In this document: in pieces, positions 31,690-34,669 of the stretch
How positions within the stretch are numbered: position 1 is the first letter of the stretch
Layout: every line of letters starts with the position of its first letter
From: Acidimicrobiales bacterium
GTDB taxonomy: Bacteria; Actinomycetota; Acidimicrobiia; Acidimicrobiales; SZUA-35
Reading direction: 5' to 3'
Assembly (NCBI GenBank): GCA_020630065.1
Contig: JAHDCC010000004.1
Location: forward strand, 99,319 to 156,915
DNA: 57,597 bases
Position numbers and translations under genes: made by a program
The notes under the pieces: model-generated
The model's database searches: none
Seen by the model: the letters and a program-made list of their open reading frames with translations, nothing else
Told to the model about the DNA's origin: nothing

Positions 31690-31896
31690 TCAGTTGTTCA
31701 CTGTTGCGTTCGTTCGTCGTTGCCGTCGCAGTAGTAAGTATCCGATTGCTGCTCCGGCGATGACGATGCCAACGAAGAGACCTTCAAGGCCGAAGAACGC
31801 GCTGAGTCCGGCGCCGCCAATCAGTGCCGCTAGTAGTAGCTCTATGCCGCAGACGACGCCGATTGCGGTAGCCCAGAATTTCTTATCTTTTTTCAT
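31690..31896 (-). CDS. Small two-helix membrane protein
   Basis: A 68-residue protein beginning MKKDKKFWATAIG, with two hydrophobic segments (about 8-30 and 36-54) and a basic C-terminus 'RRQRRTNATVNN'. The ATG at 31896 overlaps the stop of the upstream gene (ATGA) and GGAAGAG precedes it. No family was recognised and it lacks the Cys pairs of mercury transporters. It is the third gene of an operon driven by a MerR-type promoter, so a membrane role in metal or stress response is possible (inference). Confidence 0.6.
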   Translation of the reverse strand: MKKDKKFWATAIGVVCGIELLLAALIGGAGLSAFFGLEGLFVGIVIAGAAIGYLLLRRQRRTNATVNN

Positions 31897-32108
31897 GATC
31901 TCTTCCTTTTGTGTATGAAGCGCCGTAAAGCGATGCCTGCCCAGATGGTTTCGAGTGCAGCGAATAGCCATGCATTGGTTGCGATTCCGTAGAGTGCGGT
32001 GGCCGTGCAGGCGGCGGCGAACACGGCGATCCAGATGGTCGCTCGATCTTCTAACGCGTATGCCATGACCATGGCGATGGCTGAACTGATCCCGAAAGCG
32101 GTAAGCAT
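31893..32108 (-). CDS. Small membrane protein
   Basis: A 71-residue protein with two or three hydrophobic segments (about 2-18, 24-41, 43-60) and a strongly basic end 'RRFIHKRKRS'. It starts 2 bases after the preceding stop and its own stop overlaps the following start, so the three small genes form one transcript. The family is not recognised; the pattern resembles small integral membrane proteins of unknown function. Confidence 0.6.
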   Translation of the reverse strand: MLTAFGISSAIAMVMAYALEDRATIWIAVFAAACTATALYGIATNAWLFAALETIWAGIALRRFIHKRKRS

Positions 32109-32110
32109 TT

Positions 32111-32428
32111 TTATGGTGTATTGATGTCTAGTCCGACTAGGGACTCGATGATTGGGATCGCGTCCGGGTTTTGGCTGGTCACGGTAAGTGTTAGGTGGTG
32201 GTCTGCGTGCTGCAGCTCAAAGGTGAGAAACGGGCAGCAGGCGTTTTCTCGGTCGATGAGTTTTGAAACCGCTTGGTGAAGACGTAGTGGGAGGTTGGCT
32301 TTGGCCCCTTGAGGTGTGCGTTCCACCGAGGTGTAGGAAGTGGTTAGGTCTCCCCATTCGCTCTCGACTGGGCCGAAGCTGGAGGCGGTGTGCAGATCGC
32401 ATCCGATTTCTGCTGCTCGTTGATCCAT
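32111..32428 (-). CDS. Small soluble protein with a CCPF motif, first gene of a MerR-type operon
   Basis: A 105-residue soluble protein. The centre carries 'DRENACCPFLTFELQH', a vicinal Cys pair followed by Pro-Phe that I recall from small proteins encoded near MerR-family regulators; that recollection was not checked. One more Cys is at residue 10. The paired Cys could bind a soft metal. The start codon lies exactly 7 bases behind a TAAGGT box, with no ribosome site, so translation is probably leaderless. It is followed by two tiny membrane-protein genes. Confidence 0.65.
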   Translation of the reverse strand: MDQRAAEIGCDLHTASSFGPVESEWGDLTTSYTSVERTPQGAKANLPLRLHQAVSKLIDRENACCPFLTFELQHADHHLTLTVTSQNPDAIPIIESLVGLDINTP

Positions 32429-32435
32429 GCTTTGG

Positions 32436-32466
32436 ACCTTAGAACCTCAGGTCAACATGAGGTCAA
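32436..32466 (-). promoter_or_regulatory. MerR-type promoter with 19-base spacer and inverted repeat
   Basis: On the minus strand a -35 box TTGACC (32466-32461) and a -10 box TAAGGT (32441-32436) are separated by 19 bases, the over-long spacing typical of promoters controlled by MerR-family activators. Between them lies an inverted repeat, ACCTCA and TGAGGT with an 8-base spacer (arms at 32444-32449 and 32458-32463 on the plus strand), close to the classic SoxR/MerR half-sites. The regulator is not in this window. Confidence 0.7.
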
Positions 32467-32480
32467 GATGTATCTCGCGA

Positions 32481-32508
32481 TTGTTTCTCGCTGGCCCCAT
32501 GCTAATGT
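32481..32508 (+). promoter_or_regulatory. Putative promoter of the YtrA-regulated operon
   Basis: TTGTTT at 32481-32486 and TAATGT at 32503-32508 are spaced by 16 bases and precede the palindrome at 32514-32525, which would cover the transcription start. It diverges from the MerR-type promoter only 15 bases away. Confidence 0.45.
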
Positions 32509-32513
32509 ACCTT

Positions 32514-32525
32514 TGTACTAGTACA
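32514..32525. promoter_or_regulatory. Palindromic operator, likely for the GntR/YtrA-like repressor
   Basis: TGTACTAGTACA is a perfect 12-base palindrome just downstream of the -10 box. Similar GTAC-rich words flank it (TGTAC at 32506-32510, GATACA at 32528-32533). GntR-family repressors commonly bind such sites, and the third gene of this operon encodes one, so autoregulation is likely. Confidence 0.55.
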
Positions 32526-32569
32526 TTGATACAAGGGTGTTGGAAAGTGCTGGGGTGGGAGAAATGGCG

Positions 32570-33334: not shown

Positions 33335-34308
33335 TGTTAGACGGCAAAAAAATTCGGAGGTTCGTGTCTGGCCAGCGACCGTTTACGGTGCTGATCCTTC
33401 TGACGTTACTCGGTTTCGCTGCCGTGCCGTTCCTGGACTCGATAGGAGTCAGTCTTGGTGTTGGTGCTCTGTTCGGGATCACGGCGCTGTTGGCCTTAGC
33501 GTTGCTCACCGCAACGCTGCTCTTGATGAATATTGGTGCCGTCGATACCGACGGAGCGGAGATAGCTCGGCTGTTAACCCGGGATCGGCAGGCTCAGGTA
33601 CTGATTCAGCGTTGGATCGTTCGGGCGCGTTGGTACCGGTATGTTGGCGGGGCAGCCGGGTTGGCGTTCGCCCTGGGCTGGACTGGGCATTTTGTGCTGT
33701 TCGGGATGATTGGGATCATGACGGGTGCGGTTTTGTCGGAATCAGCTCGGGTGGGTAAGCCGGTAGATGGGCCCCGTACAGCAGAGTTGACTAGAAGGTC
33801 GCTTAGGCGATACGTGTCTGGTGGACAGCAATATGTGTTGTATCTAATCGCTGGGTTGGGTTGCGGGTTAACTGTTTTCTCGCTGGTAGACGGTGGGCGA
33901 GGTTGGTCGTTGTATGGCTCTTTGTCGGTCTTGTTGCTGGTAGGGGTCGTCCTGATTGCACAGTGGCGGGTTGTTGTTCGTAGTCGTCCAGCGTTGCCAG
34001 AACCCCTTCGTCATGCCGACGACCTTCTTCGTTATTTGGCTAATACTCGTAGTCTGGCCGATCCAGCGATGGCATTGGGGTTCGCTCTTTTAGCTGAAAC
34101 CTTCGGAATATGGGCGGGTCCGCAGGGTTTGACTAACGTTGCGGGCATAGCTGAGTTTGTGTGTTTTGTGCTCGCTTTAGGGGTCTGGTGGCAGAACCGT
34201 CGACTGGGTCTTGATCGGTTGAGCGACGTCGAGTTAGCTAACCCGCCTTCTCAGGGTGTGGCAGGTTCGAAGGATCAGACTACAGTTTCGTCTACTCATG
34301 ATTCTTGA
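33334..34308 (+). CDS. Unknown multi-pass membrane protein
   Basis: A 324-residue protein with about eight to ten hydrophobic segments in pairs (about 18-40, 42-66, 107-125, 128-142, 172-190, 200-218, 250-290). Between pairs two and three there is a charged loop 'DTDGAEIARLLTRDRQAQVLIQ'. No transporter signature or ATP-binding motif is present, and no ABC ATPase is nearby. It is coupled to the single-pass protein before it, and its last 11 bases overlap the GntR-family regulator gene after it. Permease or integral sensor are both possible. Confidence 0.6.
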   Translation: MLDGKKIRRFVSGQRPFTVLILLTLLGFAAVPFLDSIGVSLGVGALFGITALLALALLTATLLLMNIGAVDTDGAEIARLLTRDRQAQVLIQRWIVRARWYRYVGGAAGLAFALGWTGHFVLFGMIGIMTGAVLSESARVGKPVDGPRTAELTRRSLRRYVSGGQQYVLYLIAGLGCGLTVFSLVDGGRGWSLYGSLSVLLLVGVVLIAQWRVVVRSRPALPEPLRHADDLLRYLANTRSLADPAMALGFALLAETFGIWAGPQGLTNVAGIAEFVCFVLALGVWWQNRRLGLDRLSDVELANPPSQGVAGSKDQTTVSSTHDS

Positions 34309-34669
34309 CGTCGACCCTCAATCTGCGTTACCGGTGTATGAGCAGATCCGGGAGCAGGTGACGCGTATGATTGTTTCGGGTGTTTTGCCGGTGGGGGCTC
34401 GACTTCCTGCTATCCGTCAGCTCGCTGGGGATCTCCAGTTGGCCAAAGGGACGGTAGCTAAGGCGTATGCGCTGTTGGAACGTGACGGTGTGGTCGAGAG
34501 CCGAGGGCATCGGGGGACATTCGTGATCGAGCTTGCGTTGCCTTCTGATATTGATGGGTCGTTGGCTGTCGCCGCTGAACGGTTCGTTAATGTCGCCCGG
34601 CAGCTTGGGGTCGACCAGGAGCGGGCGTTGGCGGAGTTGGCGGCTCAGTGGAACCGGCAATCGGGTTAG
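34298..34669 (+). CDS. GntR-family transcriptional regulator, YtrA type
   Basis: A 123-residue regulator, the normal length of the YtrA subfamily. A winged helix-turn-helix occupies residues about 10-75 ('LPVYEQIREQVTRMIVSG', 'LPAIRQLAGDLQLAKGTVAK', 'GVVESRGHRGTFV'), followed by a short helical dimerisation tail. ATG at 34298 gives the standard family N-terminus; longer readings extend into the upstream membrane gene. YtrA-type repressors usually control ABC transporters; here the operon has two unknown membrane proteins instead. It probably represses its own operon through the palindrome at 32514-32525. Confidence 0.85.
   Translation: MILDVDPQSALPVYEQIREQVTRMIVSGVLPVGARLPAIRQLAGDLQLAKGTVAKAYALLERDGVVESRGHRGTFVIELALPSDIDGSLAVAAERFVNVARQLGVDQERALAELAAQWNRQSG

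Follow-up and report, generated by a model that had tools for sequence, protein, structure and literature searches.

Three very small genes lie in a row on the minus strand of the 57,597-base stretch of DNA analysed here (the window), behind a promoter of the MerR/SoxR type. The first gene (32428-32111) encodes a protein of 105 residues with a CCPF motif, hereafter the CC protein. The second (32108-31893) encodes TM1, a small membrane protein of 71 residues with the motif LTxFG...YxLExR...C...WxFAxLE, which belongs to a wider, uncatalogued family, and the third (31896-31690) encodes TM2, a small membrane protein of 68 residues with the motif VCGxEL...GGA. The first two genes are listed open reading frames; the start of TM2 at 31896 was picked by its homologues, the list of open reading frames giving a longer frame of 93 residues (31971-31690), and this start overlaps the TM1 stop in the tetranucleotide ATGA. 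Over 19 residues, the two small proteins reach best hydropathy means of 1.86 and 2.19 and the CC protein one of 0.56; judged by hydropathy, the CC protein is predicted to be soluble, and TM1 and TM2 to carry membrane-like segments. The initial annotation, which described three tiny genes for a CCPF-motif protein and two very small membrane proteins, is borne out by the reading frames and the hydropathy.

The promoter (32466-32436, minus strand) consists of a -35 element, TTGACC (32466-32461), a spacer of 19 bp and a -10-like element, TAAGGT (32441-32436). Within it lies the inverted repeat ACCTCATGTTGACCTGAGGT (32463-32444, minus strand), whose 9-nt arms are 89% complementary and which is symmetric at 16 of its 20 positions. 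The pattern TTGACCTCAWGTTNACYTGAGGT occurs once in the 57,597 bases with up to three mismatches, and never in 100 shuffles; because this pattern was composed after sight of the promoter, a held-out matrix is the better test. Such a matrix, built from 15 related promoters with that of the window excluded, gives the window promoter 35.4 bits and the runner-up position in the window 11.2. A promoter of the MerR/SoxR type is present upstream of the CC gene in all 15 related loci examined, as it is in the window, and each of these promoters has a TTGAC-N-N19 element before the CC start codon, its -10 element ending 6-8 nt ahead of that codon (7 nt in the window). The -10 element opens with TA in 15 of the 16 promoters, the exception being L014, with CATCGT. 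Leave-one-out matrix scores range from 27.0 to 46.9, and promoters outside the training set also score high (L119, 35.8; L128, 40.4; L072, 40.9). The hallmark of MerR-regulated promoters, i.e., 19-20 bp between the -35 and -10 elements and an inverted repeat in the spacer, is found in the window and in 15/15 related loci, so the description of a MerR-type promoter with a 19-base spacer and an inverted repeat between its boxes stands. The distance between the -10 element and the AUG suggests that the transcript is leaderless, and the mRNA of the CC operon probably has its 5′ end at or next to that codon.

The conserved cysteines of the CC protein are Cys10, Cys64 and Cys65. The window CC protein has no match in Pfam (E ≤ 1), in NCBIfam (E ≤ 1) or, by profile, in the PDB (E ≤ 1), and the 12 CC members searched in Pfam yield a single weak match, to DUF7334 (E 0.03); TM1 and TM2 have sub-cut-off matches only in Pfam and NCBIfam, the few listed for TM2 lying far below the cut-off. 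AlphaFold models of the CC protein, with a mean pLDDT of 78.0 for the window protein and 86.8 for that of locus L047, predict the order helix-strand-strand-helix-strand-strand-helix. In the models, the second long helix has the Cys64-Cys65 pair at its end, and the N-terminal cysteine is in the segment that precedes the first long one; Cys10 falls in a low-confidence region of the window model. Fold searches brought no clear match, only weak ArgR C-terminal-like and LAGLIDADG-like resemblances, with a best Z score of 8.0 for the window model and of 6.9 for that of L047, and Foldseek gives no match for the models at E ≤ 0.001. No ArsD or HMA chain is among the CC fold matches listed, which proves nothing. 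Like the As(III) metallochaperone ArsD, the CC protein is small and combines a cysteine pair with a third cysteine, and one distant member lies within an ars cluster; unlike ArsD, the window CC protein is without a Pfam match at the threshold given above, and its cysteine spacing and predicted order of helices and strands differ from those of ArsD.

A scan of genome contigs with the window CC protein as single query gave 70 pattern matches and no relative. A search with a five-row alignment (A2) gave nine loci, of which eight carry titles with Acidimicrobiales or Ilumatobacter and the ninth is titled Actinomycetes bacterium. The CC protein is present in 11 of 61 genomes, its own genome counted, and matches at E ≤ 1e-5 occur in 14 of the 39 genomes searched in the family, at 17 places. 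We define the close CC loci as the 14 places in 12 genomes with at least 66 bits, the window included and the distant loci L125, L126 and L129 excluded. The promoter, at 34 bits or more, lies upstream in 14/14 close loci, 12 of which belonged to the training set of the matrix. In nine close loci, the gene immediately after CC is a merR, and in several of them the two genes overlap; the other five, including the window, are without an adjacent merR. TM1 is present in five of the 14 and TM2 in three, and both are therefore optional. All four genes stand in a row, CC-merR-TM1-TM2, in L011/L113, and CC is followed by TM1 without merR in the window and in L020/L053/L116, L049 and L050. No known resistance enzyme was seen in the close CC group.

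Two further features of the relatives concern the small membrane proteins. The wider family of TM1 is found in 10 of 396 genomes of the phylum (own genome counted), and its conserved cysteine is kept in 10 of the 11 other TM1 loci in the phylum, near which no MerR was found within the fetched 3 kb; since the cysteine is kept at loci without MerR, it does not specifically indicate metal binding. TM1 has no match on plasmids. Longer membrane proteins near the module (L072, 800-1246; L014, 2034-2378) carry a C-A-x-E-L motif resembling the C-G-x-E-L of TM2, and where the L072 one starts there is an operator-like sequence.

The genome of the window has seven MerR_1 matches (E ≤ 0.001), all on contigs other than that of the window. 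The best candidate for the regulator of the operon, a protein of 135 residues, likewise lies on another contig (C62:75970-76350; its gene and product are called the C62 merR and the C62 regulator). With a profile of CC-linked regulators it scores 185.8 bits, the next match in its own genome scoring 62.3; this first profile, like the one that served for the local merR calls in the relatives, included the C62 regulator itself. A profile built without the C62 regulator still gives it 148.5 bits, the next sequence outside its clade (L040) scoring 103.0, and no further MerR of the same genome appears among the best 44 matches listed (lowest, 56.6 bits). In a tree of 59 MerR proteins, the C62 regulator falls within a clade of CC-linked regulators that has 13 rows (support 99/89), nearest to those of L013, L011 and L048 (85/90). 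A matching operator lies ahead of the C62 merR (C62:76400-76422, 38.9 bits), and a third copy in the same genome (C41:11215-11237, locus L059, 38.7 bits) is directly upstream of a DUF6069 gene, whose product is a membrane protein of 154 residues. With up to two mismatches, the operator pattern occurs at 10 places (eight distinct sites) in the genome, compared with two for the reversed control; of the sites scored, those of the window, the merR gene and the DUF6069 gene stand out, the best of the remaining loci reaching at most 10.3. As far as the operator pattern reaches, the window operon, the C62 merR and the DUF6069 gene likely constitute a predicted regulon of three members. The initial annotation had called the regulator missing, held that a MerR-family gene must be elsewhere and proposed a genome search for one with the same operator. 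That search has found the C62 merR, a relative of the operon-resident MerRs of the close loci, and the regulator, truly missing at the locus, is probably accounted for genome-wide. Neighbours of the C62 merR (L002/L005), with names judged by eye, are a metal ABC transporter permease and a CueR-like regulator, after which comes a P-type ATPase-like gene that has a copper-type operator.

Regulators of this kind are not found with every CC gene. At E ≤ 1e-20, the regulator profile has no match in genome G005 and one only, of the SoxR type, in G007, in a search that covered genomes other than G027; either CC genes can therefore persist without the regulator, or it falls in gaps of the draft genomes. 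The reverse arrangement is seen in genome G009 (L072), where the operator is present, merR and TM1 are open and an internal gap in the CC gene removes the segment with the cysteine pair.

As to what the regulator may sense, all 13 regulators of the clade have a C-x-C-x5-C loop near the C-terminus. In the mercury-sensing MerR, the third Hg-ligand cysteine is near the start of the dimer helix. No such cysteine was found, none being conserved in the alignment A3 (8 rows) or in the profile aligned to 5crl. The C62 regulator scores below the cut-off with the mercury MerR model TIGR02051 (62.0 bits; cut-off, 150.85), as it does with every NCBIfam equivalog among the matches listed for CueR, ZntR, CadR-PbrR and NmlR. 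On these model scores, the C62 regulator is a MerR-family member whose ligand class is not matched by the curated models. Like the metal regulons of the MerR family (MerR, CueR, ZntR, CadR/PbrR), the system has a promoter with a 19-bp spacer and a central inverted repeat, a small regulator with C-terminal cysteines whose own gene is behind the same operator, and a small thiol-bearing protein in the operon; unlike them, it has a regulator below all the NCBIfam cut-offs listed and without a visible third Hg-ligand cysteine, and its target proteins are uncatalogued.

The curated model that scores best for the C62 regulator is that of SoxR, which matches all eight aligned regulators (best E 1e-20), and the system could in principle answer redox-active compounds or nitric oxide, with the regulator a SoxR derivative that retains a metal cofactor and the CC protein a thiol redox or cofactor partner. 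The four cluster cysteines of SoxR are arranged as C-x2-C-x-C-x5-C. The loop of the CC-linked regulators matches three of these four in register, and the operator half-sites resemble those of the E. coli soxS operator. However, the score of the C62 regulator with the SoxR model TIGR01950 is 71.8 bits against a cut-off of 116.9, the first cluster cysteine is absent in 13/13 regulators of the clade, and the SoxR-type MerRs of the same family, with CIGCGC or CIACGC, form a separate clade of 16 rows (100/100) in the same tree. We therefore regard a redox or nitric oxide response as unlikely.

A profile search for the family of the CCPF-motif protein, also proposed in the initial annotation, finds a CC member in 22 of 396 genomes of the phylum, its own genome counted. 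The cysteine pair is kept in 34/34 wider members examined, and a further cysteine lies 35-75 residues ahead of the pair in 32 of them, both misses being partial matches. Of 25 other CC loci of the phylum, 15 have a MerR within 1.2 kb, compared with 0 of 17 control loci; among the loci counted, L032 and L043 are near-identical copies, one at each end of a single contig, and the controls include some that overlap or lie on the same contig. The CC and MerR proteins are joined in one open frame in four of the 25 (L022, L023, L026 and L027) and also, by coordinates and a frame of 522 residues, in L125, and in L037 the CC protein is fused to an LMWPc/ArsC-like reductase. The window CC protein has no match on plasmids; its distant relative L024 matches 17 plasmid records, and in 15 of them the match lies under a gene whose annotation is that of a MerR-type or heavy-metal-responsive regulator. 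In the five of these 17 records whose neighbourhoods were examined, the CC relative is accompanied by ArsM, alkylmercury lyase, a redoxin and CcdA in the first; by thioredoxin, CcdA and a GDCCVxC protein in the second (Sinorhizobium); by ArsC, ACR3, ArsD and ArsA in the third; by fluoride exporters in the fourth; and by a heavy-metal P-type ATPase, cation diffusion facilitators and YnfA in the fifth. A bile acid:sodium symporter is also nearby in all but the last. This company of arsenic and mercury genes is that of distant CC relatives.

The single CC-MerR frames, the plasmid matches under regulator genes and the overlap of CC and merR genes in close loci would also suit a CC protein that is mainly a regulatory partner; it would then be a separated sensory domain handing the ligand to MerR, and not a resistance protein. 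Against this, the CC protein is also fused to an ArsC-like enzyme, 10 of the 25 phylum loci have no MerR match, and the G009 gene has lost its cysteine-pair segment with merR and TM1 still open; a mainly regulatory role is, in our judgement, improbable. A response to electrophiles or formaldehyde of the NmlR/AdhR type, co-regulated with the gene for S-(hydroxymethyl)mycothiol dehydrogenase (mscR; TIGR03451, 676 bits) and the following gene for an MBL-fold hydrolase, which lie downstream of TM2 on the same strand (31506-29774), was set aside as very improbable, given that the NmlR model scores 45.4 against a cut-off of 175, that the mscR start used is about 180 bp away from TM2, and that by tblastn the mscR and MBL genes were found only at the window's locus among the fetched CC loci, most of which span about 1.5 kb on each side.

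On the other side of the operon, an inverted repeat of 14+14 nt (32506-32533, 79% complementary) has a perfect core, TGTACTAGTACA (32514-32525). It lies between the CC operon and divergent plus-strand genes that include one for a GntR regulator (34256-34669), whose best NCBIfam match, to the model of the Rv1152 family, stays below the cut-off; the repeat is possibly the operator of this GntR regulator.

We return to the reading that we favour, by a modest leaning, in which the operon forms part of a small regulon of the MerR type that responds to a soft, thiol-binding metal or metalloid. The C62 MerR would bind the over-long promoters in trans and, with its effector bound, would untwist the DNA such that the -35 and -10 elements line up, transcription starting at or next to the AUG of a leaderless mRNA. 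The effector would be As(III), Hg(II) or similar, and the regulator would sense it with its C-x-C-x5-C loop. The same ligand may be bound by the CC protein through Cys10 and the Cys64-Cys65 pair, with the protein acting as a cytosolic buffer or chaperone, or passing the ligand to the regulator, and TM1 and TM2 may take part in export or envelope protection. The earlier suggestion of an undescribed metal or thiol-stress module is in agreement with these data. The CC protein is indeed without a match in the databases searched, and the conserved cysteines, the MerR company and the neighbouring ArsC, ACR3 and alkylmercury lyase of distant relatives point, by association, to metals and thiols. From comparisons of this kind, the module is best described as MerR-type control of uncatalogued thiol proteins, and a metal(loid) function is the best-supported guess. 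No paper on the CC-TM1-TM2 module was found by titles and abstract starts in the open-licence literature, which does not imply absence from print.

We put forward a wider proposal tentatively, at rather less than even chances: the CC protein may be the founder of an uncatalogued three-cysteine domain, spread across Actinomycetota and at least one alphaproteobacterium, that serves as a detachable ligand module presenting metal(loid)s to MerR and ArsC-like enzymes. The domain would be fused to its partner, adjacent to it or, as here, left without merR; it would couple sensing with detoxification, the tiny membrane proteins making up a response that needs no pump.

For the organism, these findings describe a predicted MerR regulon of three members, and likely a case in which the regulator has been parted from its operon with the operator retained at both places. 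In Frankia, the metal-related merR genes are reported to lie outside operons with resistance genes (PMC4531530). For the family, they define cysteine-rich proteins without a Pfam or NCBIfam model that are tied to MerR by adjacency, by fusion, by a shared operator and by a same-clade regulator encoded on another contig, and these several ties make the ligand and the role of the CC proteins directly testable.
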